Source: Chrysophaeum taylorii (Eukaryota > Sar > Pelagophyceae > Pelagomonadales > Pelagomonadaceae). Taken from it: DNA of 64,000 nt. The stretch lies in contig JAQMWT010000584.1 of the NCBI GenBank assembly GCA_029834535.1, forward strand, positions 1 through 64,000. Reading direction: 5' to 3'. The position numbers were made by a program, and so were the translations under genes. This document shows, one piece after another, positions 31,661 to 60,450 of this stretch (position 1 is the stretch's first letter; each line of letters begins with the position of its first letter). Under the pieces are notes generated by a model. That model ran no database searches. It was not told the DNA's origin and saw only the letters and a program-made list of their open reading frames with translations.

Positions 31661-31762
31661 CTATGAATCTATACGTCAGCGCAAGGGTTCGGGTTACCGC
31701 ACCTCTCGCTCTTCAACCAGCGGAGGTTGTTTTTCTGATTAGTTTTACAACAGGTACAGGCC

Positions 31763-32115: not shown

Positions 32116-32129
32116 TTACAGTGCGCGTG

Positions 32130-32755: not shown

Positions 32756-32759
32756 GGAC

Positions 32760-33016: not shown

Positions 33017-34504
33017 TTGTTGGCACGGCGGCCCAGGCCCTCCCACACCTCGTCGACCTTCGCGATCCTACGGGTGCCGTGGAGGTCCCTGGCTACCTCC
33101 CCCGCCTCGCCTCGGTCCTGGGTGCCACTTCTTTTCGCACAGGTAACGAGTTGCACCGTTGGCACCACCTCCTCGCATCCGGTTGCCGCCTGGGGCGAGC
33201 ACTCGAGACTGCGTGGGACGGACTTCGGGCTGATCTCCGTACCACGATGGCTTCCCACGGCGGCGCTGGTTCCGGCGACCCCGCCAACGTTCATCTCGTC
33301 GACGGTCCTCTCTCCCACGAATTCGGTCTCCATGGGCGTCCTCGTCGACCCCACCATCTCGACACCCGTGCTCATACCCCAACTCCAGCGTGGTCTAACC
33401 TCCCAGCGCGAGACAGCTCGGGCCACTGCACTCCAGCGCCTTGCGGCCACCCTTCCCATCACCGAAGCACTTCGAGTAGCGGCGTCCTCATGGGATCGCT
33501 TCTCGACCACGTTCATCAGCTCGTGGCCCAGCTCCGCCCTTCAAATCCCCAACCGCTGCTGGGCTGAGATGTGTGCCCAGTACTTTGGCTACCCCTCTCC
33601 AGCTTGTTTGGGCCTCGTGGGCACTCGCATTCTGGGCACTAACGTCGTTCTCGACGCTCACGGCAAGGTGCTTCTCACGCAGGCCAACCTTGTCAACCGC
33701 GGAGGAGCGCGGACCACCTGGCATGACGGCCAGCTCGACTGCGTCCACGGCAGCGTCAAAGAGGCCGGCATCCCAGCCCTGTCCGAGGTTTTCGGCATCT
33801 TTGCTGACGTCGTCGCCCCTACCATTCGCACGCGCCTCTACGGCCGGTACCGAGGCAATCTCGCCCGACGTCAAGTCGTCCCAGACATCCTCACCACGCT
33901 CGACAACAAGGAGCAACTCTACGACATCAAAACCCTCGCTTGGGGTTCGTTGTACACCGCCCACGCCCTCCATCCCTCCCACCCGTCGCCTGTCGATCGG
34001 CGCGCAGAGCAAGTCCACTCCGAATACCTCGCTCACGCCCGCGGCATCGACGCCATCATCCCCCAGCCGGGTACAGCACCACCGCCTGGCTTCTTGGGCC
34101 CTGTCGAACAGCGGCTACGTAGCTACGGCACCGTCGCCGGCCTCGTCTTTGGTGCCTTCGGTGAGGCCAGCGCGGCGTGCCACGCTCTCGCCCAAACATG
34201 CGCAGAGCGCATCGCCGCGCGAACCTGGGTGACAAGCGGCTGCGCCAACTTCACAGAGGCAAAGGCGGCCCAAACTCGCCGCATCTACCGTGAGTGGGGG
34301 ATCGCCAACGCATTAGGCCGGGCTCGCTGTGCCCTCACCGCCCTCACCCATGTCGCCGCCTCGGGGAACCCCACCCAGGCCGCCCGGTCCCAGCAGGACG
34401 TCACCCTTCGTCGCACATACGTCCGGCGACAGCATGCGTACGACCTACGGGCGGGGCCCGTCCTCTCTTCGCCTGCCCCACGCCTCGGCGATGACCCCGA
34501 CTAG
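33017..34504 (+). CDS. Mobile-element PD-(D/E)XK nuclease-like protein
   Basis: A 495-codon frame whose first ATG is at 33332 (MGVLVDP); the true N-terminus is unclear, because sequence upstream of about 33300 looks more protein-like in another frame (GYLPRLASVLGATSF). The core reads SWDRFSTTFISSWPSSAL, then FGYPSPAC, VVLDAHG, and VVPDILTTLDNKEQLYDIKTL: a PD...DxK arrangement typical of PD-(D/E)XK (restriction-like) nucleases. It is followed by YLAHARGIDA and GPVEQRLRSYGTVAGLVFGAFGEASAACHAL. I recall similar ORFs in repeat elements of dinoflagellates and haptophytes. Tail modules flank it on both sides and its last ~75 bp recur at 53250-53325, so it is part of the mobile patchwork. Confidence 0.6.
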   Translation: MLARRPRPSHTSSTFAILRVPWRSLATSPASPRSWVPLLFAQVTSCTVGTTSSHPVAAWGEHSRLRGTDFGLISVPRWLPTAALVPATPPTFISSTVLSPTNSVSMGVLVDPTISTPVLIPQLQRGLTSQRETARATALQRLAATLPITEALRVAASSWDRFSTTFISSWPSSALQIPNRCWAEMCAQYFGYPSPACLGLVGTRILGTNVVLDAHGKVLLTQANLVNRGGARTTWHDGQLDCVHGSVKEAGIPALSEVFGIFADVVAPTIRTRLYGRYRGNLARRQVVPDILTTLDNKEQLYDIKTLAWGSLYTAHALHPSHPSPVDRRAEQVHSEYLAHARGIDAIIPQPGTAPPPGFLGPVEQRLRSYGTVAGLVFGAFGEASAACHALAQTCAERIAARTWVTSGCANFTEAKAAQTRRIYREWGIANALGRARCALTALTHVAASGNPTQAARSQQDVTLRRTYVRRQHAYDLRAGPVLSSPAPRLGDDPD

Positions 34505-34942
34505 GTCCCGCGTACTTATTTCCGCCCGTCAGGCACATCCCTCGTACCCCACAAACCCACCCACATCCTTCATGCTCCCCACGCACACCCCCCTCTTAGC
34601 AACTAACTAACTAACTTCAGACCTCTCCCGAGCATGGGAGCCAGGCCGGACCGACAGGAGCCAGTCCGGAATCACGGGCCTGTAGACGAGGAGCGCCGAA
34701 AGGTCGGTCGGAGGAGAGTGACCATCAAGCTTGTCGCAATGCGACGAGGAGACCGTGATGTGACTGACAACCAACTCGCCGATAACCTTCCGTCTTCGCC
34801 CCCCGGCCATACCCCTCTTAGCAGTCGACATTTAAAGACAGACAAACATCTGTCTTTTAATGCCGACTGCAAACATCTGTCGATTAGTAGTAAGGATTTA
34901 CACACGACACACGCAACAACTGGTAGAATAGAAAAAAAAGGT
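34505..34942. repeat. Tail module plus 185-bp block repeated inverted at 51986-52172
   Basis: 34510-34610 is the 118-bp tail module, then (CTAA)n leads into a ~185-bp block (about 34603-34787) whose reverse complement is at about 51986-52172 with few differences. Read on the minus strand the block stays open and encodes DLSALLVYRPVIPDW and RPGSHARERSEVS, so it was once coding. A partial tail (CCCCTCTTAGCAGTCGACAT) follows at 34810, then a short AT-rich leader to the glycosyltransferase start. Confidence 0.85.
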
Positions 34943-36391
34943 ATGAACGTGCTTGTTGCCGTTGCGACGACGACGACGGTCGCCGGCGCATCGCGGGGGT
35001 ACCTCTACGTGTCGAACCGGCTGGACGAGGTGCTCGTAAGCGCCTGGAGCCTCCGAGCCGCCGAGCCCCTCGCGAACGTGACCCTCGTCGCCGACGCGGC
35101 GTCCATCACGGAACTCGAGGCGCGACAGGCGTCGGGTTTGTTCGACGTCGTGCTCTCCGCCGAGACCGTGCTGCCCGGGACGTCGACCGGCGACTCGATG
35201 GGCTTCCGCGTGCAGAAGCTGCGGGCGTGAGGGTGGTGCGTGAGGCGCCGTGACACGCGTCGCAGACTGCGCGCGACGCCTTACGACGAGACAGTGTACC
35301 TAGACAGCGACGTCGTCGCGTGCGGTCGGTTCGACGGGAAGGCGTTGTGGGAGGCCGTCGGGACCGCGGACGTCGCGGGCGTCGCGCCGCGCGCGGGCCA
35401 CGTGAACGGCGGAGTACTGGCGTACCGGAAAGGACGCGTCGCGCAGACGTTTCTCGCGGATTGGGAGCGGAGGTACCGGAAAGTGATGCGCGTCACGCGG
35501 CGCGAGCAACCCGTGCTGCAGGATGCGCTGCGCAACGTGAGCACCTTCGCCCTGCTGGGTGTTGACTGGAACTGCCGCGGCGCGGCGACGTGCGAGGGTA
35601 ATTTGTGCCGGCTCGCGCACGGACACGACGCGTACCTCGCCGTTTCGGCGGCGTTGCCGCCGTTTCTCGGGACCGAGGCCGACCTCCGGGCCCTCGGTGC
35701 GGTCTACGCGCAGGCGTGCCCCGTCTTCTCGGGCGGACACCCCCTCGTCGTCCTCGCCCGCGCGGCCGGCAGCGACGGCTTCGAGGGCGCTTTGGCGTCG
35801 CGCCTCGCGGCTCTGCGCAAGGACAACGATGCCGAGCTGTGTCGCGGGCCCTCGCCGGCTCGGTGCCTCGCGACGCGACGCAGGTACGGCGTTGTGATGT
35901 TGGCCGACCGCCCTCCCCCCCTCGTCGTCGACTCCCCCGTGCCGGCCGCCGCGCCGGTCGCGCTTTGTTGGCTCTCGTCGCCGACGACGCGCCCGGGCCT
36001 CGCCGGTCTTTTGGCCGCTTGCGCCCGCCGAGGCCTGCGGCCGATGGACTGCTCCCCGGTCGCCAAGGCGGCAGTGCGGTGGTTCGGCGGCGTCGACCCT
36101 CGCACGGCCCTCGAGCGCGCGCGCGGCGACTTTGCCGCCGTCCTCATGCCCCACCGCCTCCGGGACTCGTTTCGGCTCTTGGAGCGCGTACTCCCCTCCC
36201 ACTTTCTCCGCCTCGCGGACACCACCACCACCACCACCACCACCCTAGGAGATGGAGAAGACCCCGCCGCCGCCGCGAAACCGGCGTTGCGAATGGACGC
36301 CTACGGCATGGCCGTCCTCGCCCCCGACCGTCGCCTCTTCGAGGCCCTCGAGGCCGACTTCAACCAACGGCTCGCTGCGTGCGGGGTGTAA
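34943..36391 (+). CDS. GT8-like (nucleotide-diphospho-sugar) glycosyltransferase
   Basis: Two exons: 34943-35226 and 35266-36391, with a 39-bp intron (GTGAGG...CGCAG), giving 469 aa. The splice joins QKLRA to [26 protein letters not shown] is the DxD nucleotide-sugar/metal site of GT-A enzymes. [13 protein letters not shown] (about 140-152) is the usual acceptor-side NGG motif. The N-terminus [16 protein letters not shown] could be a signal anchor, followed by VLVSAWSLR and VTLVAD of the first beta strands. The C-terminal ~230 residues (about 240-469) are Ala/Leu/Pro-rich and not recognised; they include a poly-Thr run. It probably works in the Golgi on glycans. Mobile repeats end only about 70-100 bp upstream of its start, so its promoter may be repeat-derived. 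Confidence 0.8.
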
Positions 36392-36488
36392 GGTCTGGCC
36401 TGCCACTGGCACCTGCACTTTGTTGTTGAACCCAAAAACCCTCCTTCCACGCACTACTAAATTATTACAACAAACAACAACAACAACA

Positions 36489-38675
36489 ATGGTGGCCGGG
36501 CGCGTCGTCGGCGTCGTCGTGATCGCACTCGGCGCGTGGGCGCTCGTGGTGCCGTCGGGGTCCGAGGGACGACAACAACGACGACGACGACGCCCAGTGG
36601 TGCGGTCGACGTCGGAGTTTCCGATGGGTGGGACCACGGGCTACTACACTGGCCCCGCGTCGACGCCCCTCCTGGACGCGGTGAAGATTCCCGCCGACAT
36701 GAAGCAGCTTTCGAGCGGCGAGCTCAAACAGCTCGCGCACGAGCTGCGGTGGGAGGTGATCCGGTCGGTCTCGAAGACGGGCGGCCACCTCGGGTCGTCG
36801 TTGGGCGTGATCGAGCTGACGGTCGCGCTCCACTACGTCTTCGAGGCGCCCGAGGACCGGATCATCTGGGACGTGTCGCACCAGTGCTACCCCCACAAGA
36901 TATTGACGGGGCGGCGGTCGCGGATGGACACTCTGCGGCAGCAGGGCGGGCTCTCGGGCTTCCAGAAGCGGGCCGAATCGGAGTACGACTGCTTTGGCGC
37001 GGGACACTCGTCGACGAGCATCTCGGCGGCCCTCGGGATGGCCATCGGCAAGGACCAGAAGCGGAAATCCCGGAACCACTGCATCGCCATCATCGGGGAC
37101 GGTGCGATTACGGGGGGCATGGCCTACGAGGCGATGAACAACTGTCACTACCTCGAGGCGCGCGTGATCACGATTCTCAACGACAACGGCCAGGTCTCGC
37201 TCCCGACGGGCACGCCGAGCGCCGGCGGCGTCATCCCGAGCGGCGCGCTCTCGGCCTACACCTCCCGCCTCATCTCGAGCAAACCCTTCGCCGACTTCCG
37301 GAACGTCGCGAAGGGTCTTTCGAACTTGATGCCGCCAGAGATGCAGGCGATCAACGCGAAGATCGACGAGTACGCTCGCGGCATCGTCACGGGCGGCACC
37401 CTCTTCGAGGAGCTCGGGTTCTATTACGTCGGCCCGGTTGATGGCCACGATCTGGATAATCTGGTCCCGATCCTCGAGAACATCCGCGACACGGCGCCCA
37501 GCAACAAGCCTATCCTCCTCCACTTGAAGACGGAGAAGGGGATGGGGTACGCGCCCGCCATGACCGCGAGCGACAAGATGCACGGCGTTGCCAAGTTCGA
37601 CGTCGCCACCGGCAAGCAGTTCAAGGGCCCGCCCGTCGTGCCCGGGGCACCCCCCAAACCCCCCTCCTTCACCTCGGTCTTCGCGAACGAACTCTGCCGC
37701 GTCGCCGAGGACGACCGCGACGTCGTCGGCATCACCGCGGCCATGCCGGGCGGCACGGGCATGGACGTCTTCGGGAAACGGTTCCCCAAGCGCACCTACG
37801 ACGTCGGGATCGCCGAACAGCACGCGGTTACCTTCGCGGCTGGACTCGCCGTCGAAGGCCTCAAGCCCTTCTGCTGCATCTACTCGACCTTCCTCCAGCG
37901 CGGCTACGACCAGCTCGTCCACGACGTCGTCATCCAAAAGCTTCCCGTCCGCTTCATGATCGACCGCGCCGGCCTCGTTGGCAACGACGGCCCCACCCAC
38001 CACGGCTCCTTCGACCTCTCTTATCTCGGCTGCATGCCGGGTCTCGTCGTCATGGCTCCCTCGGACGAAATCGAGCTCATGAACATGGTCGCGACGGCTC
38101 ACGCGATCGACGATTCTCCCAGCGCCGTCAGGTATCCCCGCGGCGCGGGCTACGGCCTCGACAAACTCAACGACCTCTTCGGCTACGACATCGACGAAAT
38201 TCCCTCGAGGGGGAAAGTCCTCCCGATCGGCAAGGGCCGCGTGGTCAAGCGACACCGCGCCGGTGGCGCTCGCAAGGTTGCCCTCCTCGCCCTCGGCACC
38301 CGCCTCGCCGCCGCCCTCGAAGCTGCCAAGGACCTCGAGGACCGCCACGCCGATCTCAGCGTCACGGTCGCGGACGCTCGCTTCATGAAGCCCCTCGATC
38401 TCGACCTCGTGCGCGCCCTCGCCGCCGAGAACGACGTCCTCGTCACCATCGAAGAAAATTCTGTTCTCGGCTTTGGCGACTACGTCCTCCACTTCCTCGC
38501 CCTCGAGGGCTTCCTCGATTCGGGCGACCTCAAGGTCCGCCCGATGGTTCTCCCCGACACCTTTATCGAGGCGGCCACCCAGTTCCAGCAATACGACCAA
38601 GCCGGCCTCAACGCCAAGCACGTCGTCGGTACCGTCAACAAACTCATTGACCGCGCCAAAGTCCCTGCCATATGA
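36489..38675 (+). CDS. DXS: 1-Deoxy-D-xylulose-5-phosphate synthase, plastid
   Basis: 728 aa, single exon. Residues 1-~40 ([16 protein letters not shown], then basic RQQRRRRRP) fit a signal plus transit peptide for a secondary plastid. The thiamine-diphosphate enzyme follows at full length: [36 protein letters not shown] (His), [30 protein letters not shown] (the GDG...N cofactor/Mg motif, about 201-216), [15 protein letters not shown] (about 438-452, catalytic Glu) and [15 protein letters not shown] (about 489-503). It condenses pyruvate and glyceraldehyde 3-phosphate, the entry and often controlling step of the MEP pathway for carotenoids, phytol and plastoquinone. It starts 97 bp after the glycosyltransferase stop on the same strand. 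The long antisense open frame over it is a codon-bias shadow. Confidence 0.97.
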
Positions 38676-45371: not shown

Positions 45372-45617
45372 TAATTAACGTGCGCATAGTTATTTACGTT
45401 TACAAGTTACCCTGTTTTCTTAACTTCGAGCTCGGTTCCGGCGGAAACGTGAGCACTACTTGTCATGATTCGTCTGTTGTGGTATTGCCAACGGCCACCG
45501 TTGATTGATTCCTCCTGGATAATCGGGTGGTGCCTACAGTAGTACCACCTCGCGTCTTTGGGCCAGCGACCTGCAGACTATATATCGCCGCGTTTTTAGC
45601 GCATCTGTGGATAAATT
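45372..45617. other. Left flank of the copia element
   Basis: 246 bp between SURF6 and the LTR. It ends with AAATT at 45613-45617, the left copy of the 5-bp target duplication. No gene seen. Confidence 0.7.
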
Positions 45618-46015
45618 TGGAGCGATTTGACCCTCTCCGGGTACATGGTAGAGACTGCGTGCAGTCTTAGGCGTGTACAGACCATTCCGCTTGTCACATG
45701 CTACTACACAAGGTAGGGATTTCGGCCCTAACTCCTTAAGGACATTAGGTCCCATAGAAGCTTTTACACTGACAACGGGGAACGAAGTCTCTGTTAATTA
45801 AACAGAAAACCCCGTACCCGACGGTACGCACCTGGAGGCCTACTCCATGTTTGAAAGGAGCTTCAGACTGGGTTCTTCATAGTCATGAAAGATAAAAGGG
45901 CGGAAGGGTAAGGGAAGAAGGAGAGAGGGAAAGCCCTATTACGGAGAGAAAACCCTCGTGTAAAGATAGGTGTGAAATGTTCCAGTGTCGCACACATAAT
46001 AGTGTAGCTCTCTGG
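45618..46015 (-). repeat. 3' LTR of the copia element
   Basis: Matches 58910-59306 over its whole length. Ends are TGGAG...CTCTCTGGA on the plus strand. The run CCCCC just inside (46016-46020, GGGGG on the coding strand) fits a polypurine tract. Confidence 0.93.
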
Positions 46016-46875
46016 ACCCCCTCAACGTATGGAAACGGTTTATGCATTTCAGACGTTCTTGAGGCGGAACTTGTGCAATATACATGAGAACAGTGAACAA
46101 TGGAACAAACAACAACAGAACAGGACAATTTAATTATGACGTCGAGCGTGTTGTGATGTTGCGTAATCATTGCATCACTCAAGTTGACCAAGGGTAATAT
46201 AACAGAAGAAAGGAAGGACATAGCAGTATCCGGTGTAAGAGCGTGTAGGTCCAATGCAGGAATAACACGATCATGTGCATCAGACAAAGCTGTGTGGGTG
46301 TCGTGAGCTGCTGCGTCGATTAAAACTCGCTGTGCCTCATTATAGGTGTCTGGGGGAAGCTGTCCAATAGACGAGATAAGTGACCGAGAAATGATATGGA
46401 CAAATACAGCAGAAGACGGGATTATGGTGTCCTGATGCATTTGAAGACTTGACAAGATGTTGTCTAATAGAGATACATGTTTGATGTTCTCGATCACTTG
46501 AGTGTTTAAGTTTTCGTAAGTCTCTTGCATCTGTGTGAGAGACGTTAGTGCAAGCGATAGTTGTTGATCTCGTGCCATCAATTGCTGTTCGGTATTAGTG
46601 AGACGTAGGGATAAGGACCGAACCTCTTCTATTAATTGGTGTAAAGATTCGGCCATATTGTTGTCAGCTTTATCTGACGTGGGTTCAGCGGTTGGATTAT
46701 CGATCGGCGTTGGTGAAGCATCTTCAGAAGAAGTATCATCTGAAAAGACATCAATTATGTCCGAAGGGTAGCTAACCTGGATTAGCACATTTTTAAAGGC
46801 AGCTTGCTGGTCAAGTGATAGTTGACGAAAATAATTAAGCATTAGCGGTAACGTCTCGGGAGAGATTGTGTCCAA
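45900..46875 (-). CDS. Copia element: second 3' accessory ORF (coiled coil)
   Basis: About 330 aa, not recognised. Residues about 75-140 form a coiled coil (LHQLIEEVRSLSLRLTNTEQ and following heptads), preceded by an acidic Ser/Thr/Pro stretch. The later half is helical and hydrophobic (ALTPDTAMSFLSSVILPLV). The reading frame runs into the 3' LTR. Position past RNase H makes it an accessory gene. There is no clear signal peptide or fusion peptide, so I do not call it an envelope. Confidence 0.45.
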
Positions 46876-46959
46876 TTAGTGGGAAACGTCGTTAACGAAG
46901 CGTTCGACAAGCATATTAAGCAGCTCGTCCGGGTTGGTTACTATGCATACTTTATCTTC

Positions 46960-48000
46960 AACAGAATGTAACAGCTGCTACAAGAATCTCAAGATTTACA
47001 CTCGAGATAAAGGGCAACCGAAGTAAAATCATGCTGCTTTCGTCAGGGTTAACAATGATTTTGGAGACATCAACTTTAAGGGATGTTGCAGTTTGCATGA
47101 TTGCCTCTTCAAGCTGCTTATTAATAGCGATAGACTTTCCAAGGCGGAGGATTATAGCCCTGATGTGGGCCGCTGGATCGTTAAAACAAGAAAGTTGGAA
47201 GGGCTGCTGACTGTTGCGAATTAAAGCTATCCCATGATGTGGCCGATCGCACAGCGCACAAATCAACAAGAAGAAAGGGCGCGGCACATCGAAACAGTGA
47301 GATGCATGTTGCGAAGACGCGAGATGATCCTCAATAATTTGGCGAATCGCGTCAGTTTTAAGTTCGTCTTCATTACAAATGGTGAGCACGACTGGTGTGC
47401 CTGGCGTTTTTACTTTATTGTAGCACTTTGTACACGTCACATGAACTTTGACAACCCCTTTAATGGGTGGGAAGCGATGAAGACGAATTCCCTCATTAGG
47501 AGATATAGCGGGGGCGTTTCGGATACGCCTAGTCTTGACACACAACAAAGAGCTTAGATATTGGACATTGTCTACAAACTCTGTCTGTTGTGCTTCCGTA
47601 AGCAGCTGCTGCAAAGACTTAAACCAGCACTGGGGTTCCTTGTGTTGCGGAATAAGGAAGTTGGGTGGTGATGAGCCAAGGGCAGTAACGTTCCCGGACA
47701 TCATCGCTAATACGTCAAATTTACAATGTTTGAGCAGGAAATACTCAGACTTTGTTGCTTGCGATTTAGACTGTTGTTGGGTAGCTGCTTTGGGCGTCGA
47801 TTGCTGTCCTTGTGCCACCGACAAATAGGTTTGATATTTTCGATTAGGGGAACTATTCGGTGCAACGCTTGGAGTTGGAGCATTAAAAGGTGGAGACAGT
47901 GACAGTATACCACCACCACGACCCCGGTTCATGGTAGAGTGGCGTCCGCTCGCAGCATCTTTGTTTTTAGTGGGATTCATCATGAGAGGAATCTCCACAT
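46960..48000 (-). CDS. Copia element: 3' accessory ORF resembling a ubiquitin-specific protease
   Basis: About 350 aa past RNase H. The first ~100 residues are Pro/Ser/Gln-rich. Then PQCWFKSLQQLL resembles the catalytic Cys box of USP/C19 peptidases (NTCWFNS-LQ-L). A CTKCYNKV pair and a later CALC suggest the zinc-binding finger typical of USPs, and HHGIALIRN...FQLSCFNDP resembles the His box plus ND motif (GHY-a--r---W--fnD). The Cys-to-His spacing, about 140 residues, is shorter than in most USPs. If right, the element carries its own deubiquitinase-like protein. This is inference from short motifs only. Confidence 0.35.
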
Positions 48001-48099
48001 CACATTTTATGTGGCATTTCACATTTTAGCAAGCCAGTATCCTGTGCATGGCAGGGTTAGTTTAAAGTCATTTCGGACATAATGGAGGGTAATGATTAA

Positions 48100-49157
48100 C
48101 CATCTTGTTGAGCTATGGGTTGTTGTAAGCCGAGTAACGTGCGAAATCTGCTGAAGAGTGGAGCTCCAAAGGTTTTGGTAAATCCATCGGCGATATTATG
48201 GGAGCCGGAAACATGATGTAGACGGATGCGTTTTAACTGTACGTAGTCGCGTATACGGAACCAACGTGTGCTGATAGCTTTAGCCTTAGTCGCACTGTCG
48301 GGATTATTAGATAGATGAATAGCAGAAGCAGAATCTCCAAGTATAGGAGTGTTACGTATGAACGACATGTCCGACGGGAGGGGATTGTCGTGAGCATCAT
48401 AATCTAGTAACAAATCTTTCCCTGAAGGTTGGCGAAGATAGAAGTGAGGGTTTATAACGATTGCCATTTCAGTTAGCAATTTGCGTAACCAAACCACATC
48501 ATCGGCACACATATTGAGGGCGATAAGTTCACTCTCATGCGTAGAAGTAGCTGTTATAGGCTGTAGCTTAGACTTCCAAGTGATGAGAGAACCAAACAAA
48601 AAGATGGCGTAGCCTGTTGTGGATTTGCGGTCTTGTTCATAAGAAGGTGCATTATCGGCATCAACGAATGCGACCAATGGATCAAAATTACCTGAATTAA
48701 CTTGTTCTTTAGTGTAGTCCAACATGGTGGCCATGTCAGTACGATTACCAATAAGAAGACGAAGATGATCCATTGGAGCGGAAGGACCAGAGTAGTACCA
48801 GAGGCGAAGATTACGATTTTCGGGCTTACGCAAGTAGCGGAGCGTTCCTGTTAGTACTTGAACATGCAGAAATGCTGGATTGTGCATTCCTCGAGAGCAA
48901 CGACTAAGGCTTTGGGATAAATCAGGGCGACAAGCTAATTGGACAAAAGTAAGTTTGCCAAGTAAGGTAGAGAAAGTCTGAAGAATAAACTTGTCCATAT
49001 CAGAAGATGGCTCTCCAGTTTTATACGTGGCTGATGGTGACATCGGTGTAGAAGTGGGACGTAATTGCATTAAGATGGGGTACTCTTCGAACAATGCGTC
49101 CAGTTTAGCCTGACAGTCCAGTGATATAGAGCCATCTGTTGTACGCGTTATGTGCAT
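48100..49157 (-). CDS. Copia element: end of reverse transcriptase and RNase H
   Basis: SPSATYKTG, LLGKLTFVQLACRPDLSQSLS and LRYLRKPENRNLRLWY are the usual copia RT-to-RNase H connection. VAFVDADNAPSYEQDRKSTTGYAIFLFGSLITWKSK carries the RNase H start (D-AD, then D-KSTTGY, a copia hallmark), followed by STHESELIALNMCADDVVWLRKLL, GDSASAIHLSNNP and HHVSGSHNIADGFTK. This fixes class and orientation. Confidence 0.95.
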
Positions 49158-49286
49158 GCCTAGGAGAGTATGGACTTCCTCGAAGGTGTCGACGGAGTAT
49201 TCCTTTTTCAGGGCTTGCTGGAACTCACGACGTAGAGTTTCCGAAGTACAAGTAATGACGACGTCGTCTACTGAGAGCGTACAAAT

Positions 49287-51985
49287 TTAAAATGTAGCTT
49301 CAGTTTGGACTTTAGCGTAAATGCATGTGTCTGTTCGAAATCGTGTATAGCCTAATGAATCAAAGAAGCTGTTTATGGTTTGATTCCAAAGGGCAGAGCT
49401 CTGACGTAATCCATAGAGAGATTTAAGTAGCTTTGGGAGACGGCGGCATTGGCATTTAGTATCTTCGGGATCCAGAAGGTAAATGCCTTGTGGCAGTTTG
49501 ACATAGACATGAGAATCGATGGGAGCTTGAACAAAAGCGTTAGGGACGTCGACATGATAGACGGGAAGTCGCAGATGAGCTGCTAGCGCCAAAACACAAC
49601 GGATGCCGGTAAGCTGTGCCATAGGGCTGAATGTGTTGAAGAAATCGGTGCCCAGAGAGGCTAAGAATCCTCGTAGTACCAGGCGTGCTTTATGTTTAAT
49701 GTACTGACCAGCAGCGTTGGTTTTTATACGTAGGACGAGACGGGTGTCAATAGGCTTTGAGTTGACCATTGGCAGCGCTAGTTTAAAGCAGCCAAACTTA
49801 ACAATGTCAAAAATCTCTTTGGAGATGGCAGCAACATAAGCTTTGCGATCAGCGTCTGAGAGACCTTTGAGGCAGTTCAATTCATATTCATCAATTTTGA
49901 TATCTTTGGCTTGAATCTTGTATTCGTCCGAACCAACCGTGCTGGGATCATGAGTCGTCGTCAGATGAGTAATTGCGTAAGAAGCGACATTATCGGGCAG
50001 ATGAGCGTGATCGGGATCTTCGATGAGTTGAACGACTAGTAGAGGAGCATCACCAAGGTGGGCTTCAATGTAATGCGATTGCACGGTGATATAGTCTTCG
50101 ATGGCGGAGAGATGAGGCTCGGAAGCACCATAAGAAGCGTCATTATGATCCAAAATGGAGTGGGGCGTGAACAAAGCATAAACATATTGAGCGGGAGGAA
50201 CTTGAAGGGCGTGAGCATGTTCAGAGGTTAAATGAACGAGAGCTTGAGGAAGGTGAAAGTCTGCAAGGTTGATGTTGTCGCAGAAGTGAACATGAGGAGT
50301 ATCAGGCGATGGGTGGCTATGGCTCCTATGACACGTAACTGAAGAGGACTGTGAAATCGCTTGGTGCACATGGTGATAAAGGGATGGTGTAAATTCCCCC
50401 TCTGGAGGTATAGCCGTCCAGTGGATGCCATGAGCGATATGAAGGGAGTGGAGGGTGGGGTCGCAGAATGTTATGTACTGCTTGGAGAGGTCGTACTTGA
50501 AGTCGGCAAGCGTACCACCGGCTTGTTTATAAGCGGCAACAGTAGGCGAAGCAATACGAGTAAGAACATCCTTGAGATTGGTTTTGCGACGAGGCTGAGG
50601 GTGATGAGGACCACGGGTGAGACAGAGGACATCCTGGGAATAGAGAGACCGATAAGATGGTAAAAGTGGCAGAGTGTCGGGAGACACTTCAGATGTAGGT
50701 GTGGTGGCGGAAGTAGCGGGTGCAGGAGCAGCTGGAGCACATGCGGGAGCGGGAGAGGGAGCATGGAGATGAGAAGAAGGAGTCCCCCTCTCATGGTCAG
50801 TGTCGGTAGGCATAGCATTCCCCCTCTGCGCCGCATCATTGGGGGTGCTGTGAACAGAGAAGGGAATGTCGGGTGAAGGTGCGGGAGGTGGATGTTGTTC
50901 ATAATCAGGAGGAGATTTAGAAATAAGATGGGGAAAAGTCAGTTTAGAGGAAACACGGACTTGACCGTTTTCAGGATTAAGGACAACATCGGCTAAATGA
51001 TTAACATGGGGTGTTATTAAAGGGTTTATAACGTTAGCACCGCATAGGTAGATGTAGGGACGGCATCGGGGTTCATATTTATGAAATTCATTAGGTTCCA
51101 AATGCAAATAACAAACAGAACCAAAAGGTTTGAGGTAGTCTTGTTGGGGAACATTACATTGGTCTAACAAAACTTGTTGGGGACTTAGGACTTTATTATA
51201 AATACGTTCGAGGGAAACGTTAGGGAGGAGATTATATGATTGGATAGCATGTATAACAGCCCACGGGTAGTGTGGTGCCGGATCTATTAGGGGGTGACCT
51301 TTATAGGATACATTAAGCATATGCCTGAGTCGTGTAGACGCGGCAGTGGCTATGTGACCAACAGCGGCTTCGACTTCATGATTAAAGACATGTAAGTAAG
51401 GGGGGAACGCGGACATATTAATACCATGTTCCACACGGAAGGGGGTTGTAACATGCTGGGATAAATAGGGTTTAAAGGAATCACAATAAATTTGTTTTAG
51501 TTGTACATGAACATAAGTAGAGCAAAAATTGCGGACAAACTCAAGGGCGTTACAAAATTCGCTGGAGTTAGTGCTACGACAAAAGTACACTAACAGAAAT
51601 TTAGAAATGAGACACTTGAAGACAATAATATGTCGAAAGGATCCCCATTCCGAGAGCACAGAGACGTAACCACCGTCACATGCCCAAGCTTCACCAGGTT
51701 GAAAAATTTTTTCGAATGATGGTTGCTTGATAAGGTGGTGTGGGTGAGGAAAGCTTTTTTTATGAATTGTACAATCCACACAGAACTTACGGTAGGGTAC
51801 GTCAGATGGGTGGTGTCCAGGACTGGCAATAACCTGAACAGCTTTTATGGCTTGAGAATCACTGGAATGGTGAATGTTGTGAAAGTTAGTAGCTCGTTGT
51901 TGCGCATCTCGAAATGCAAGGGTGCCCCTGGCATGGACTTTCTTATCGAAGGGCGCATGCTTCTCATGGAGCTGTCTTGGCGTTA
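49287..51985 (-). CDS. Copia element: integrase and reverse transcriptase
   Basis: The part near 51.95-51.7 kb is a pre-integrase zinc region (FCVDCTIHKKSF). GEAWACDGGYVSVLSEWGSFRHIIVF starts the integrase catalytic core (first Asp), continued by IYCDSFKPYL (second Asp) and FNHEVEAAVGHIA (Glu). A Pro/His-rich linker of about 200 residues separates it from RT, which starts near ISKEIFDIVKFGCFKLA and includes TRLVLRIKTNAAGQYIKHKARLVLRG, FNTFSPMAQLTGIRCVLALAAH, VYHVDVPNAFVQAPI and SLYGLRQSSALWNQ, all standard copia RT blocks. Confidence 0.93.
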
Positions 51986-52229
51986 TAAGTGACGAGTTGG
52001 TTGTCAGTCACATCGCGGTCTCCTCGTCGCATGGCGACAAGCTTGATGGTCACTCTCCGCCGACCGACCTTTCGGCGCTCCTCGTCTACAGGCCCGTGAT
52101 TCCGGACTGGCACCTGTCGGTCCGGCCTGGCTCCCATGCTCGGGAGAGGTCTGAAGTTAGTTAGTTAGTTAGTTTTTCTTTAGTAGGAGATAATATATCT
52201 GCGGATAGGATGTTAGAGAGGAACAAGTG

Positions 52230-52610
52230 CAGGCCAGTAAGTTCACCTACTCCCAATCTCTAACCCCAGTAAGTTCACCTAATCCCAGTAAGTTTCATAT
52301 AAGTTCACCTGGTCAGTAAGTTCACCTAGTCCAAATCATTAACCCCAGTAAGTTCACATGGTCCAGTAAGTTTCATATTAGTTCACCTGGTCAGTAAGTT
52401 CACCTAGCTCACACCCACTCCTTCGAGCTCGTCGCTCTCGCCTCCGCCAATCTAAGGCGCTTTGATCCGCACACGCCGCTAACCTTTGAGTTTACTCTAA
52501 AACCCCCAGTAAGTTCACCTGGTCCCAGTAAGCTCACCTGGTCACTCAGTTCACCTTGTCACAATCTCCAACCCCAGTAAGTTCACCTGGTCCCAGTAAG
52601 TTCACCTACA
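52230..52610. repeat. Array of short CAGTAAGTTCACCT repeats (copy 2)
   Basis: Same order of units as 31763-32115, with only scattered differences. It again lies at the 3' side of the helicase fragment. Confidence 0.92.
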
Positions 52611-52639
52611 GTGCGCGTGTAGACGCCGTGAGGGGGCTT

Positions 52640-53245
52640 ATCGGTATTGCGCAGCACGTGTGGGGTAGGGTGGAGTCGTCGACCCAGATGAGTATATCCT
52701 CGGGGATGCCGATCGACAGAGAGCCACGTAGAGCTGGACGTGGCAGAAGACGGGCTTGGGAAAGAGGACGCCGACCTCGCGGGGCGTCTGACCCTGGCTC
52801 TTGTTGATCGTTTGGCGTCAGCGGAGCTTAAGGGATACTGGTTGGAGTAGCCTCGGTGACAACGACACGATCGATCATATATCTGGTACCGTTGCAGTGG
52901 CCGTGCGACGGGTCGAGGTTGCGAAGACATTAAGCTCGCGATCAAAGTCAGCATGCCGTTGGTTGTCAGGGAGTTGAAAACTCTACTGTAAAGAGCGAGG
53001 CGTCGTCTTCCGACCCAGCCTAGTCAGCCGAAAAGAACTCCGACGCCTCGTCTCCGGGAAAAAAAGGCCGCGGTCATGCGCGCGTTGTCAGCATCGACAA
53101 CATCGTTTCGACGGGGCGTGAGAATAGCGCGCTGAAAGAGCCGCCGCGGGTCGTGGAAATAGTCTGCGAGGTCGCCGTAGACGGCTTGGAGGATCACTGT
53201 CTGGCTCTCGCGACTACCTGATCCTTACCCTAAATCGAGGGACAG
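52640..53245 (-). mobile_element. Helitron-type PIF1 helicase C-terminal remnant (copy 2)
   Basis: Parallel to copy 1 from the ILQAVYGDLADYF-like segment to TINKSQGQT and LYVALCRSA, and sharing most of its degenerate state, which implies both descend from an already dead fragment. It carries its own small differences (for example 8 bp fewer near 53085 and 53135). Confidence 0.75.
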
Positions 53246-53529
53246 GCAGCATGCGTACGACCTACGGGCGGGGCCCGTCCTCTCTTCGCCTGCCCCACGC
53301 CTCGGCGATGACCCCGACTAGGTCCCGCGTACTTATCTCCTCCCGTCAGGCACATCCCTCATACCCCACAAACCCACCCACATCCTTCATGCTCCCCACA
53401 CACACCCCCCTCTTAGCAGTCGACATTTAAAGACAGACAGACAGACTCCTCTTAGCAGTCGACATTTAAAGACAGACAGACGGACAGACAAACAAACAAA
53501 CAAACAAACATCTGTCTATTAGTAGTTAG

Positions 53530-55490
53530 GAAGCATGAGCTACTGAATCAGTATGAAAAGAGGTAAGTTCGTGGTTAGAAGTGATAGTATCACAACATAA
53601 GATTTTTTTATTGGAAATATAGAACATAGTAATAGAACTCTGGTGTAATGTTGAAGATGTATCTGTTGGGAATATATTTGTGAAGAATGTTGACCTATAG
53701 TTTTTGGTTAGAGGAGCGTGATCAGGGTCAAACGATGGTAATAGCGTTAATGTACGCAAGTCGTAAACAAGCTGACACAAGTGTTTATAAATTGTATGAT
53801 ATGTTCCAGCTGGAATAGCATTTGCGATGATATCACAGCATAGGTCGGGGGACAAAGACAAAAGAAAATTGATTTGGTACGCTGTGAAGTTATTGGCGCG
53901 TGCCAATTCGCGAGTTGAGTAGTGTCGGATGCGATCGAGTCGTGGATCGTACACGAGCATATTAGCAAATCCACGAATGGTAGGAGTGGGAGTATATATA
54001 GAGTGAACTTTGGCCCCCATCTTCCTGTCGCTTGATGTTATAAAGCCCAAATATCTGCTTTGGGACAAATGCATGTCACTTAAAGCAAATATTTTGTCGA
54101 TAAATTCGAGACGATTTTCCTGAGGGTAGAAGACAAAAGAATCATGAAATACAGGAGAGGTATAGGAAACCAGTGCTTGTACTAGACGACGTGTGTCTTG
54201 ATTTTCATTATTATTATGGTATGCTTGGCAAAGCCAAAGAAAACCGGTGACTGGTTCGAGAGAAGCAGTCTTGTCGATTCCGGCATCGTGTGTTAAAAGG
54301 GTGTAGGTTTCGCCAAAAGCATTTATGTGTACCTGGTATTTAGAGGAAGAGTTAGAAACTGTTATGTCTCCGCCTGTGTGTCTTCCACCAGTGATGTAAA
54401 TGATAGGTGAAGTAGAGGATTTATTTAGGAATAACCTGTGAGATGGTTGGTTAGATTCGATAGTTGTAATACGAAAGGACACAGGTAATGTGATGGATTT
54501 AGGGAATAATCGTCCCATGATATTATAGAGGAGCACAAAAGCTTTGAGTTCAATAGGGGATCTCATGCAAGCTAGTGGTTTTCTTGAATTAGTCAAGAAT
54601 CCCAGGCGAAAATTAGAAATGCCTTCCATTTCATCTTGACTGGGATGTTCGACTGTTTTATTAGAGTGCAGACGAAGGAACATCATAGTTAAGGTTTTGA
54701 GCTCAGTCACATTTAAGCGCACGGATCCGGTACGACTAAAAATGTTATAGGTTTTAGGTGTGGACACAAATGGTAAGTCAGGAAAGACTTGTGTCCAATG
54801 TTCGTCAACTATTAACTTGCGACTGATGGAGTTAGCGTGGTCTGCAATATCCAGAAAGGAGGTGACTCGTTTATTAGGCCATGAAAGCAGATCGAGAGGG
54901 CCGGTGTTATATTTGCGTGCAACGAGGATCCATCTTCCTCTAGCTTGATAATCTCCACATAGATAGCATGGAAATCGGTCACATATGTCCACCGTGTAGT
55001 GCATCGTTGAGAAGATGAGATTAGCGACTCGTATATGGTCTTCGTACGATGCGGAGTGTGGTGGTGTCATTTCCATGAAAAGAACAAGCGGCTTTAAAAG
55101 CTCAAGTACACTTAGAGCACTTGGAAACAAGGAATCATCCATATCGCGTTCGAAGGTGGAAATGGATCTCCCATTGATTATGTTGCGATTTGTGCATGGT
55201 GATGTCAATTCCACTATGTCAGTGTAATATCGTGCACGTTCAACGTCCGATGCTCGATGGAGATATGTCAAAAACTTAGGTAAGGATGGGAAAACTTCGA
55301 TGGAATTACCACAACGTCTTCGTAGCATGTGCGTGATATTGTCGTCGCTCTCAACAAGAACTTTAACGTTGATGTTGATTTGCAAGTCATTAGAAGCGCA
55401 AGCCAAGAATGCAGGAGTGGACATCCCAGAGCAAAGTAAAGTTACTGTAGGTATTCGTGGGCTAGTAGATGAAGTTACTGTATGGAGCAA
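53530..55490 (-). CDS. Copia element: C5-cytosine DNA methyltransferase
   Basis: About 650 aa with C5-methyltransferase motifs in canonical order. VTLLCSGMSTPAFLA (about 16-30) with VLVESDD is motif I/II (SAM binding). SPCTNRN (97-103) fits motif IV, with Cys99 as the catalytic cysteine. VLFMEMTPPHS (about 136-146) fits motif VI, the ENV site, here EMT. CGDYQARGRWILVAR (178-192) fits motif VIII (Q-R-R). TPTIRGFANMLV and RHYSTRELARANNF (motif IX) and IANAIPAGTYHTIYKHL (motif X) close it. The enzyme would methylate cytosine in DNA. Retrotransposon-borne methyltransferases are known from dinoflagellate and charophyte elements; here it lies between protease and integrase of a copia element in a stramenopile. 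Confidence 0.85.
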
Positions 55491-55509
55491 ACGTGTTGTA
55501 ACCTTGCGT

Positions 55510-56330
55510 CATACTGGAGGTGGGAAATGCTTGCGTATATAAGGCAGCTGCGAATGCATTGACTCCAAAATGGTTTTAAGCCATGGGACATAAATTACTC
55601 GTTCCATGAGGGTGGAGTATAGTTTGAGCATTTCGCGTTGTTCATTAAAAGCACATAGTCTGAACTGTAGTGAGCGAAGTTCCATTTTACGCGCTTTTGC
55701 TTGTTGTAGCGAGTAAATTGGTAGAGTTGGCAACAGGTTACTGAGTCTAAACAAAGTAATCTTGACATTATCATCAATTTTACTCTGGATAGATGATTGT
55801 CCTTTAAATTCAACTCCATAAAGGTGTATACCAAGTTTATCTTCTCCCCATTGAGTCATACTGATGATGTGCAGATCGGGATCGTTGTGGTCGTTTTGCT
55901 TGGGTAGGAAAAGCGCAACGTCTAGCTTTACATATCCCACATTTGGATGCTTTGGCAGAGCGGGAATGACGGTCCTTATAATCATAGCATGTGTGATTCT
56001 CTGCGTATCCGTAGCAGTCTGGATAGCAGGTGATAAAGACTCGGGTAGCTTTACGATGTGGATAGGATCAGCATAACGTTTAAAGTTAATTACATGTTGA
56101 GAAGCACATGTGTCAGCATATCCTGGCGTAGTCATTAGCGGCAAATTGTACTCGTTGTACAGTTTAAGCATTGTTGCATAACAGGCATGTGTTGAGCTTT
56201 GACCAAACACGTACTGTGTCATGAAACTTTGCGTTTGTTCGGAAGGCACAACGACGAGTGTAAAACCAGTATTTAGTTTTGGTAGCAACACAGGGGATCT
56301 GTACCATCTTTGTTGGTTAAATTACTGGGG
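55510..56330 (-). CDS. Copia element: aspartic protease region
   Basis: TPGYADTCASQHVINFKRYAD resembles the copia protease active-site segment (D-[ST]-G-A-S--H, then a loop). It is followed by VGYVKLDVALFLPK and ISMTQWGEDKLGIHLYGVEF, the beta strands typical of the domain. About 250 aa lie between gag and the methyltransferase. Confidence 0.6.
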
Positions 56331-56548
56331 AGCTCAGAGTGCAAAGAAGTTTCCCGAGCTTGACGACGAACAATAGCATTCTGAGCTTTAGCATTTTGTG
56401 GAGCTCGTGGCAGTTGCAAAGTCCGCGCGATGTTCGCTAGAACGACGGACAGTGATTGTTCGTGGACCAAGTAGCTTTGACGACCAGAAGTGGCGGTATA
56501 ACAAGTTTTGTCTGCGTGATTCTTCGATTGCACTGTGTCTGAGCTAGG

Positions 56549-56576
56549 TCTGAAGTTAGTTAGTTAGTTAGCTAGC
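56549..56576. repeat. (TTAG)n footprint shared with the patchwork edge
   Basis: AGGTCTGAAGTTAGTTAG followed by more TTAG units is the same as the edge of the 185-bp block at about 52148-52172 and, inverted, 34600-34625. It lies between gag and protease. Confidence 0.6.
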
Positions 56577-58425
56577 ATTTATGTGCTGCAGTAGCGGCTG
56601 AGGGATGTTATCGATTTCATCATCTTTAATTGACAGGAAAGTGTGGAACATTTTCTCTGTATCAGCAGTCCCCCTCTGCTCCGCATCACTGGGGGACGCT
56701 TCAGGAGCAGATGTTTCAGTTTGATACTTTTCTTCTGAAACAAGAGATTCCTTATCGGCTTCCAAGAGGTTCGATATGGTATTGGACATAATATCAACTC
56801 GAGATAAGTAGAGATGAACTTGGGTGGCTTCATCAGGATCTAAGGACTGTGTCGAAGCTTGAGAAGCGGTTGTCCAGAGGGTACTCAATAAGCTTTTCAT
56901 TTCCTCCTGTACCATTTTAGAGTCGGTGGAAGGATTGGGATTCGCTTCCTGCAATTTACCAAACAGGTGGCGAAGACGATCAACTTGATAAGTAGCCCGG
57001 TCCATAAGAGACATATTAGAGCGTGCATTACGGTTAGAGGAAGATGAGTAGACAGGACGATCGAAGCTGGTACCTTTGACGTTATAATTTGAAGGTGGAC
57101 GATAGTACGACGTGTCACGGGGTGAAGATTGTCGATGCTTTATCTTTTGCATTACGAAGCTTACGAGCGTTGAAGCCAGACTGTCCAGCTACAGTAGCTA
57201 ACAACGAGTAAGCGTTGTTTAGAGAATCGTGGGATTGATGAATAGTGTCCATCAATAATACCTTAGGTGGCTTGGTAGCGGTAGTACCAGGGATGTAAGG
57301 GATCCAAGAAGCGGGTTTATCCAAGCGTCGGTTAGAAGAAAACTTTGTCTCATTATATATCTTTAACAAGAATTCCAATAGTGGACGAACGTCGTTAGGA
57401 TCAACTAGCTTTAACAATTCGGGATCGTGACTCGAGTTGTTACTAGAGCGTGTCTCGTAGAGTTTACACCATTCCAATAAAGATTGAGAATAGCGCTCGT
57501 GATCCGATGGATTAGCATATAGACGGTAGATCTCCTCGTGAGCTTTAAGAGTGATTATGGAGTTATTAAATTGGATTGATGCTTCATCATTATTTAATTG
57601 CTTTGCCTGAGATTGAAAGGAAAGGAGTTGTTCGACAAATACATGGGCATACCAATTAACATTTAGAGACATTCGATTAAACTGAGATTTAAGCTCAGTT
57701 ACATCTGTACAAGACACTGTCTCATAGTAATGATAGGCTAAAAGCATTACAGCACGTAATTTATTGGGATGTGCAGTAATTGCATAAATTTTCTTTAGTT
57801 GAGGCCACATAGCGAGAGCGGGCTTTTCCTGGGACTCGAGGTTAAAGAATATGTACAAAAAACCAGCATAAGTTTCGCAGTGTTTGATCCAATCGGCATT
57901 AGAAAGACCTGTAAAGGATATGTTAGTTAAAGATGAATCATACACAATTGATTTAGGAAATCGGGTATCTAATAAAGTAAGGACATTTTTAACATCCTCA
58001 TTTAATTCAGGACGGACAAGGTTGTACGACTCTTGGTAGTAAAGTCGTTCAAGGCTATTACGGGCATCAACCGTTAGTTGATGAGAAGAGTTGACGTGCC
58101 AAGTCTTTAAATGTTCGGGCAGGGCATCTTCATCAGGTAAGTTTAAATCGTTAACTTGTTCAGCTTTCCATTGAGCGAAGATGATATCAACTTCTTGTTC
58201 AAGGATTTGATTATATTCCGGAGCATTCCGGGTGTAAGCTTCATATGAATCAAAGCAGAATAACGCGTCCACATATGGACTTGTCATATGCCTGCGAAGC
58301 GTTTCAATTTGCAAGCTCACCTTAGTTGAATTATCTTGGAAACGCAATCCTGCGTTAATCTTATCAACGAGGATTTGTTCTTGTTTGTAGATATCCGTGG
58401 TAGATATTGTTTTTTGTTTTGACAT
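56570..58425 (-). CDS. Copia element: gag region
   Basis: About 430 residues of helical, Gln/Asn/Leu-rich protein starting MSKQKTISTTDIYKQEQ, with FDSYEAYTRNAPEYNQILEQEV and LAMWPQLKKIYAITAHPNKL, then a second ~190-residue part with SNMSLMDRATYQVDRLRHLFGKL. No CCHC zinc knuckle was seen. The position just inside the 5' LTR and length fit copia gag. Confidence 0.6.
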
Positions 58426-58909
58426 GATTGTGACCTATTAAGGGATAGGTTAGAGGATTGATAGACAGATTCGACACATAAGAATGAAGGGTTTCTCAAG
58501 TGCGGGTTCTATGTACAGTACGCGATTTTAAACGTGGGCTTATTGACAAGACCAAACAAATCAACATGCTATTTAAAACAGGGTGACTTGAGACTGAAGA
58601 ATGGATTAGTTCTCGAGCAGTCAGTCTTTTGTTGGGGAATGGAAGGAAAAACCCGTACAAGTTTCCGCGGCTTGTATAGGAAAAATTTTAATTTTATTGG
58701 TTATGCGAGTGCATGTGACCAGTGACCGACCCAACTCGGTCACAAACCAATTTAACTGGTGGGCACATACCGTCACACAACAAATATGTACAGTAGACCA
58801 CCGCCAAACACATTGTCGCATTGTACTCGTGATCAGGCGTAAATTGATCATTCGATTTAGACGTACAACACAGTTGGGCTGACACACCTACGCATCTGGG
58901 CCCATAACC

Positions 58910-59306
58910 TGGAGAGATTTGACCCTCTCCGGGTACATGGTAGAGACTGCGTGCAGTCTTAGGCGTGTACAGACCATTCCGCTTGTCACATGCTACTACA
59001 CAAGGTAGGGATTTAGGCCCTAACTCCTTAAGGACATTAGGTCCCATAGAAGCGTTTACACTGACAACGGGGAACGAAGTCTCTGTTAATTAAACAGAAA
59101 ACCCCGTACCCGACGGTACGCACCTGGAGGCCTACTCCATGTTGGAAAAGAGCTTCAGACTGGTTTCTTCATAGTCGTGAAAGAAAAAGGGCGGAAGGGT
59201 AAGGGAAGAAGGAGAGAGGGAAAGCCGTATTACGGAGAGAAACCCTCGTGTAGAGATAGGTGTGAAATGTTCCAGTGTCGCACACATAATAGTGTAGCTC
59301 TCTGGA
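58910..59306 (-). repeat. 5' LTR of the copia element
   Basis: TGGAGAGATTTG...GTAGCTCTCTGGA on the plus strand. On the element's strand GGTTATGGGCCCAGATG directly follows it, the place for the primer-binding site. Confidence 0.93.
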
Positions 59307-59346
59307 AAATTATCGACCGTCCCAATCTATATATGGGCGCATTCAT

Positions 59347-59808: not shown

Positions 59809-59863
59809 ACACTAAAGAATTCATGAACGTAGGTGCGTGCGCCTCGAAAGAACTTGGTCGGTC

Positions 59864-60450
59864 TGGAGAGATTTGACCCTCTCCGGGTACATGGTAGAGA
59901 CTGCGTGCAGTCTTAGGCGTGTACAGACCATTCTGCTTGTCACATGCTACTACACAAGGTAGGGATTTAGGCCCTAACTCCTTAAGGACATTAGGTCCCA
60001 TAGAAGCGTTCGCACTGACAATGAGGAATGAAGCCCCCATTAATTAAACAGAAAACCCCATACCGTCAGAAAACCCCATACGTAGGGGTTTAGGCCCTAA
60101 CTCCTTAAGGACATTAGGTCCCATAGAAGCGTTCACACTGACAATGAGGAATGAAACCCCCATTAACTAAACAGAAAACCCCATACCGTCGGAATTAAGC
60201 CCCCATTAATTAAACAGAAAACCCCATACCTGACGGTACGCACCTGGAGGTCTAGTCTACTCCTTGTTGGAAGCAGCGAACTGCAGATCTAATTCTTCAT
60301 AATCTGAGATAATAATGGCGGAGGGGTAAGGAAAGAAAGAGGAAAAGCCGTATTACGGAGAGAAAACCCTCTTGTGGAGATAGGTGTGAAAGGAGTGAGA
60401 TGTTCCAGTCGCTCATACACCTCATACACATAATAGTGTAGCTCTCTGCA
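59864..60450 (-). repeat. Separate related LTR with internal duplications
   Basis: Starts like the copia LTR (TGGAGAGATTTGACCCTCTC) and ends TAGCTCTCTGCA, but is about 190 bp longer, because a CCCTAACTCCTTAAGGACAT...CAGAAAACCCCATACC segment is present two to three times. It has no partner LTR in the window and no matching flanks, so it is a solo or truncated LTR, more diverged than the pair bounding the intact element. Confidence 0.8.

Follow-up and report, generated by a model that had tools for sequence, protein, structure and literature searches.

The window analysed here, a stretch of 64 kb of Chrysophaeum taylorii DNA, holds a Copia-type LTR retrotransposon of a family termed F1, whose pol carries between protease (PR) and integrase (IN) what is predicted, by way of its relatives, to be a diverged C5-cytosine methyltransferase (MTase). 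An MTase upstream of the integrase is common to three families, F1 (the window element), F2 and F3. The explanation that we regard as probable, with considerable room for doubt, is that of a Copia clade in which a C5 MTase has been resident in pol since one old capture, in which F1 expresses it through readthrough of a UGA codon, and in which the enzyme methylates the element's own DNA, thus protecting, marking or tuning its copies. The observed basis of this explanation consists of the position in pol, the motifs, the selection on them, the parallel divergence of MTase and integrase, and the UGA itself.

Structure of the element

An earlier note on this DNA had described a Copia retrotransposon, and the description holds. 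The reverse transcriptase (RT) matches RVT_2 (E 3.9e-31 in the window element, 1.6e-38 in the F2 copy L039), the integrase lies upstream of the RT, which is the Copia order, the LTR pair is 97.2% identical in a self-comparison of the window, and AAATT stands on both sides. The integrase part of the window element gives rve at 17.5 bits and SH3_retrovirus at 24.2 bits, both in place and both below their cut-offs. The order of the whole element is gag–PR–MTase–IN–RT. The coordinates given earlier, 53530–55490, cover the MTase frame, and the whole element extends over 45618–59306. The placement of this frame between protease and integrase is likewise sustained, as its 654 aa (53526–55490, minus strand) are flanked by a frame with DTCAS and by the integrase–RT frame. 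The features are as follows:

45618..59306, minus strand: complete LTR element of Copia type (family F1), 13,689 bp when its three later insertions are counted, delimited by the LTR pair and the target duplication
58910..59306, minus strand: 5' LTR, 397 bp, from the window self-comparison and the flanks
45618..46016, minus strand: 3' LTR, 399 bp, from the window self-comparison and the flanks
59307..59311 and 45613..45617, no strand: target-site duplication AAATT (5 bp), directly outside both element ends
58896..58909, minus strand: putative primer-binding site GGTTATGGGCCCAG, adjoining the 5' LTR
56568..58425, minus strand: gag, in frames 57115–58425 and 56568–57152; a single 608-aa frame in copy L041
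55509..56291, minus strand: protease-like open frame with DTCAS, the motif recognised by eye
55509..55511, minus strand: conserved in-frame UGA between protease and MTase–IN–RT, from the comparison of F1 loci
53526..55490, minus strand: predicted C5-cytosine MTase region of pol, 654 codons, from motifs, selection and profiles of relatives
49287..51779, minus strand: integrase and reverse transcriptase (RVT_2)
48096..49157, minus strand: end of the RT / RNase H side of pol, from position and Copia order (dN/dS 0.20 against copy L054)
46958..48022, minus strand: extra 3' frame X; its stop-free match in copy L054 is spread over two frames (dN/dS 0.17, 350 codons)
45883..46875, minus strand: extra 3' frame Y, overlapping the LTR, matched in copy L054 (dN/dS 0.28 over 224 codons)
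51990..52171, no strand: insertion of 182 bp in the window copy, absent from L010, L012 and L013
52224..53527, no strand: insertion of 1,304 bp in the window copy, splitting MTase from integrase, absent from L010, L012 and L015; 93% like window 31749–32760
56401..56572, no strand: insertion of 172 bp in the window copy, absent from L012, L015 and L041

Pfam searches give no match for the protease-like frame 55509–56291, no family above cut-off for the frame 48096–49157, no match for frame X, and for frame Y a FAM76 match below cut-off and none over it. Frames X and Y sit between RNase H and the 3' LTR. The gag-to-protease junction (56291–57152, minus strand) shows a frame change at differing places among the F1 copies L010, L012 and L021, which may mark a frameshift site or be due to decay.

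The window copy is broken by the three insertions. The gap between MTase and integrase is secondary, since the splitting insertions are missing elsewhere and copies L041, L042 and L043 keep the frames joined: MTase and integrase share a frame of 1184 aa in L041 and of 1173 aa in L042, and in L043 a single open frame of 1464 aa comprises MTase, integrase and the start of the RT. Two of the insertions that broke the element are constituted by repeats that recur in the window, of about 1 kb (52222–53244 and 31749–32760) and of about 180 bp (51993–52170, 53247–53418 and 34430–34778), with 93–98% identity. LTR-like pieces at 59863–60391, 82–95% identical to the element LTR, lie just outside the 5' LTR and are perhaps an older relative inserted next door. 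Host genes of the window include a DXP synthase with an N-terminal extension (36252–38675, plus strand), which hints at a plastid-bearing host, and an LPMO_10-like protein (10098–11420, minus strand).

The primer-site word of 14 bases, GGTTATGGGCCCAG, may pair with the anticodon region of the initiator tRNA, as a half-tRNA primer. The 70.8-Mb genome contains 549 occurrences of its reverse complement and none of the reversed control; no tRNA gene was found at the first 8 of these places. Related families seem to share the word, because 4 of the 8 primer-word loci read hold gags that are 34–43% identical to the F1 gag.

A predicted, diverged C5-cytosine methyltransferase

Along the frame 53526–55490, the earlier note had recognised motifs I, IV, VI, VIII, IX and X in order; this order is confirmed, having also been tested across relatives. 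The stretches that we take to be motifs I, III–IV, VI, VIII, IX and X are these:

55416..55448, minus strand: motif I (TVTLLCSGMST); TVTLLCSG is residues 15–22
55185..55220, minus strand: motifs III–IV (DIVELTSPCTNR); DIVELTSPC is residues 91–99, with the predicted catalytic Cys99 at 55194–55196
55056..55085, minus strand: motif VI (VLFMEMTPPH); MEMTPP is residues 139–144, with Glu140
54921..54962, minus strand: motif VIII (LCGDYQARGRWILV); GDYQARGRW is residues 179–187
53883..53927, minus strand: motif IX (around STRELARANNF), residues about 525–535
53805..53837, minus strand: motif X (around IIANAIPAG); ANAIPAG is residues about 556–562

Motifs VIII and IX are separated by some 300 residues. 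In an alignment of seven rows (A7) that brings together F1, F2, F3 and two homologues, P0001 and P0002, the residues Gly22, Glu47, Asp91, Pro98-Cys99, Glu140, Gly179 and Arg186 are invariant (7/7). Motif VI reads EMT in F1, F3, P0001 and P0002, and in motif VIII of F2 a single Arg is left of the usual pattern. A 591-base stretch of the F3 copy L065 has LCSG, EVTPPC, AEMTPP and GDYQSRERW. Motif IV is SPC in F1, PPC in F3 and P0001, APC in P0002 and LPC in F2; because of these variants SPC looks derived, and a Dnmt3 origin, at which the SPC of F1 had hinted, was dropped.

The class membership of the protein is reached through its relatives. The earlier note had proposed a search with the Pfam profile PF00145 and had named the absence of a significant match as evidence against its reading; that absence is what is found for the window protein, and it is overcome solely through the relatives. 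Taken alone, the window protein matches no Pfam family at E<=1 and no NCBIfam family, its first 200 residues alone give no match, and the DNA methyltransferase of PHROG is reached at E 0.063 only. P0001, from a protein search, is an MMETSP transcript with 39% identity, and P0002, from a profile search, comes from a 9,613-base contig of ENA with 38% identity; the records of both state no species, and either may come from the same organism as the window. P0002 exceeds the PF00145 cut-off of 22 bits with 23.0, and P0001 stays just below it with 20.2. F2 is over the cut-off in L039 with 32.1 bits and reaches up to 46.1 in the F2-like L003, and the F3 stretch scores 11.2. In an alignment of ten members (A1), PF00145 is matched by 4/10, phrog_116 DNA methyltransferase by 9/10 and TIGR00675 dcm by two (best E 2.8e-8), which are presumably the F2 rows.

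Profiles of these alignments were compared with the PDB. The A7 profile retrieves 8yf3 (E 2e-5), M.HhaI (3.7e-5) and 3g7u (9.7e-4); of the 18 hits that it yields at E<=1, the top 13 are C5 MTases, with M.HhaI entries making up 11 of these 13, and DNMT1 entries stand at E 0.36–0.38. With A1, 8yf3 is found at E 3.8e-4 and M.HhaI at 2.1e-3. DRM2 is matched weakly with A1 (E 0.27) and is absent at E<=1 with A7. An F2 profile (A6) finds 8yf3 only, at E 0.25. The claim that the element encodes a C5 MTase is thus upheld by P0002 and F2, both over the PF00145 cut-off, and by the C5 MTases that A7 retrieves.

That the domain is some other Rossmann protein appears extremely improbable. The silence of the window protein in Pfam would agree with it, as would the structure models, which are poor (pLDDT 38 and 48) and match the folds of generic Rossmann dehydrogenases, and the F1-dominated A5 profile, which finds no MTase in the PDB. 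It is largely refuted by the PF00145, TIGR00675, PHROG and PDB profile matches: the intermediates match PF00145 and TIGR00675, the 13 best A7 matches in the PDB are C5 MTases, and motifs IX and X follow in order.

Further searches found no relative in the viral_contigs and genome_contigs collections and, for P0001, no match among phages at E<=1. When the MTase portion of the F2 polyprotein served as query, 7,996 candidates were scored and not one reached E<=0.001.

Selection on the methyltransferase

For F1, 32 sequences were considered, of which the 24 that are free of stops were used; 8 of L010–L037 were excluded because they contain stops. All 24 stop-free copies retain Cys99 and Glu140, and 23 retain Pro98 and Arg186. 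With stops included, the Cys is kept in 30/30 F1 loci, and L019 has a stop at the Glu. The median dN/dS of the MTase frame is 0.107 (274 of 276 F1 pairs), and over the whole frame it is 0.05–0.13 in 10 of the 11 pairs listed, the eleventh being saturated.

L043 is the full copy farthest from the window copy. In this pair dN/dS rises from 0.02 for the MTase half through 0.06 for the recognition region and 0.07 for IX–X to 0.15 for the tail; with a dS above 1, these values are rough. Among the 11 pairs listed, values for the MTase half lie between 0.02 and 0.15, and in 8 of these pairs this half has the lowest value of all four regions. In three pairs with L043, dN/dS is 0.020–0.028 for the MTase half and 0.016–0.021 for the integrase, which makes the MTase about as constrained as the integrase; in closer pairs, the corresponding ranges are 0.07–0.11 and 0.05–0.17.

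Three families and a probable single capture

The matched places of F1, F2 and F3 amount to at least 266, broken copies included; this is a lower bound, as only the best candidates were scored. F1 has 73 matching rows in its own genome, of which 68 were kept as places, F2 has 86 rows, of which 73 were kept, and F3 has 125 rows, all at E < 1e-150 to the F3 C-terminal query. In the F2 copy L039, protease motif, MTase, integrase and RT lie in a single frame of 1952 aa. On contigs C10 and C297, element matches stand at nearly equal coordinates in the F1, F2 and F3 lists, and since these coordinates nearly coincide the two are probably duplicate or allelic contigs.

Seen from the RT side, 150 of 1670 candidate RT hits were scored. 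An F3 MTase lies within 8 kb upstream of 50 of these 150, at 1.9–2.9 kb from the RT in 45 of the 50, and the downstream control gives 0/150. A listed F1 MTase lies within 8 kb upstream for 17 of the 150 and an F2 MTase for 1, counts that may overlap among the three families. An abundant RT group near C560 was considered as Copia without MTase; this reading was dropped because one of its members, L064, read over the 2.5 kb upstream of the RT, revealed the third MTase family, F3.

The MTases of F1 and F3 are 56.9% identical and those of F1 and F2 20.8%, and the integrases 59.2% and 27.4%, respectively; the RT is 39.5% identical between F1 and F2. That MTase and integrase diverge in parallel, and that the MTase occupies the same position in pol, speaks for one capture preceding the split of the families. 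Compared by hhalign, the F1 and F2 MTase profiles show weak to moderate similarity (probability 70%, E 4e-5), and the MTase may, judging from these sequences, have been replaced in one branch after the split.

At least two further PF00145 matches, L001 and L002, stand outside the element families and may be DNMT2- and DNMT5-like. L002 (G000:C621), with PF00145 in a 2086-aa open frame, is a possible host DNA methyltransferase. The PF00145 gene L001 is matched by 11 phage records.

A conserved UGA before the methyltransferase

A TGA stands 25 codons before motif I in 29 of the 30 F1 loci L009–L038, L009 being the window copy and L014 the one that does not have it. In these 29 loci it is followed by CGCAAG in 26, CACAAG in 2 and CGCAAT in 1, and L043, at a dS of about 1 to the window copy, also has TGA CGCAAG. 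The frames on either side of the UGA are open in most F1 copies, which argues that it is a stop that has been kept. Stop-codon readthrough between gag and pol is known in some retroviruses, and readthrough of the F1 UGA would be the simplest reading of the sequence pattern. At the protease–MTase junction of F2, the frames of L039 and L040 run on without a stop. Among the relatives of the MTase, P0001 is transcribed (MMETSP).

Possible function and alternative explanations

The proposed mechanism starts from a C5 MTase that would have been captured once, before F1, F2 and F3 split, and would thereafter have been a domain of pol between protease and integrase. In F1, gag–PR would end at the conserved UGA, and occasional readthrough would yield MTase–IN–RT. 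The MTase would most likely move methyl groups from SAM onto cytosines of the element's own DNA, either while the cDNA is still in the particle or shortly after it has integrated. Methylation of this kind would serve to protect new copies, to mark them or to modulate their expression.

A footprint of CpG deamination, which methylated CpG sites in resident copies should leave as additional C>T changes, was looked for in 29 F1 copies. Singleton C>T changes are found at 8/76 CpG sites and at 35/315 other C, showing no rise, and under a looser polarity at 13/87 and 47/368, with no clear rise; C>T rates by neighbouring base run from 0.086 to 0.151. CpG O/E lies at 0.88–1.05 for element stretches, with 0.93 for the window element, vs 1.30–1.33 for two stretches of host DNA; TpG/CpA reaches 1.11–1.15 in elements, with 1.11 for the window element, vs 0.81 in the host stretches. 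These values would fit deamination, although GC content differs too. As C>T at CpG shows no clear rise, methylation may be short-lived, may use another sequence context, or may fall elsewhere or on RNA.

It could be argued that the MTase, though active, acts in trans on the host genome or on rival elements and benefits this clade through altered host silencing, not through marks on its own DNA. The domains of a pol polyprotein are normally packed in the particle together with the cDNA, which speaks against this proposal, as does the fact that nothing here ties the MTase to host loci. We consider it unlikely, even though the element's own copies show no CpG footprint and, according to the part of the 2018 study available, expressing SymbioDIRS-Dnmt3 MTases in yeast leads to methylation of the yeast DNA (de Mendoza et al. 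2018, PMC5890265). An action on RNA, either the element RNA or the tRNA primer, in the style of DNMT2, would also agree with the lack of a clear deamination footprint, and two eukaryotic families of such enzymes are reported to have RNA substrates (PMC12344493, in the text available). Nevertheless, the best profile matches are cytosine-specific MTases of bacterial type such as M.HhaI, and motifs VIII and IX enclose a large region, which makes this reading quite unlikely.

The domain might instead be a catalytically dead module that binds SAM or DNA and is kept for structure, as EMT in place of ENV in F1 and F3 and the eroded motif VIII of F2 could suggest. The retention of Cys99 and Glu140 in every stop-free F1 copy and in every row of the A7 alignment, and the catalytic half being most often the region of lowest dN/dS, argue against this, so that a dead module seems very unlikely. 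Methylation of the element's own DNA by an MTase resident in pol is retained as the preferred explanation.

Relation to known systems and significance

DNMT-bearing LINE, DIRS and Gypsy elements are already published, and, as far as the accessible parts of the literature go, the Copia backbone with the order PR–MTase–IN is new. In its accessible text, the study of de Mendoza et al. 2018 (PMC5890265) describes SymbioLINE-Dnmt, two SymbioDIRS-Dnmt3 structures and KnitGypsy-Dnmt3, and says that the Copia elements of Symbiodinium lack any DNMT. The earlier note had named Symbiodinium and Klebsormidium as precedents; the organisms are right, but the backbones are LINE/DIRS and Gypsy, not Copia. KnitGypsy-Dnmt3 of Klebsormidium nitens is, from the same text, alike in being an LTR retrotransposon that has a C5 MTase within its Pol frame and evolves under purifying selection. 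It differs in being a Gypsy element with a Dnmt3-related MTase, whereas the present element is a Copia with its MTase between PR and IN, and the present MTase profile best matches bacterial-type C5 MTases among solved structures. SymbioDIRS-Dnmt3 and SymbioLINE-Dnmt, as described there, share the many copies, the conserved key residues and the retroelement-borne C5 MTase, on DIRS and LINE backbones instead of Copia; the LINE type also carries an orphan MTase.

A 2025 article (PMC12344493, Mol Biol Evol) speaks, in the portion available, of DNMT3 in 'LTR Copia and DIRS' elements, citing the 2018 work, where the charophyte element is a Gypsy. This wording is the sole mention of a Copia-borne DNMT found, and it comes with no description of a PR–MTase–IN element in that portion. 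Sola1-1_Ec32 of Ectocarpus (PMC12477816) is, according to the accessible text, an algal transposon with a DNA methyltransferase as well (a ParB plus methyltransferase protein), but it is a DNA transposon and its enzyme is predicted to act on N4-cytosine or N6-adenine, not C5. A Copia element with a C5 MTase between PR and IN does not appear in the accessible parts of a survey of DNMTs in microeukaryotes (PMC9998398), of a dinoflagellate review (PMC11453091) or of the Ectocarpus element survey (PMC12477816), nor, by title and abstract, among the open-licence literature matches listed.

Cytosine MTases borne by retroelements have been described for few lineages, with LINE, DIRS and Gypsy as backbones; Copia adds a further one, with hundreds of matched copies and an MTase at integrase-like constraint. 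The parasite brings the kind of tool that hosts often use against it, and the key parts of this tool are kept by selection. The elements thus offer a natural experiment on what is gained from methylating DNA where hosts silence elements by methylation, and as at least two other PF00145 genes are present, host and element methylation can be compared in one genome. A wider reading, which is plausible although we lean slightly against it, is that the whole Copia clade has the C5 MTase as an ancestral and permanent component, one that goes back to a single capture of an orphan, non-Dnmt3 enzyme that would predate families whose integrases are 27% identical, and with relatives in other sequence sources (P0001, P0002); the conserved UGA of F1 would set the dose of MTase–IN–RT. 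If this is true, these elements would methylate each new copy as a step of their replication.
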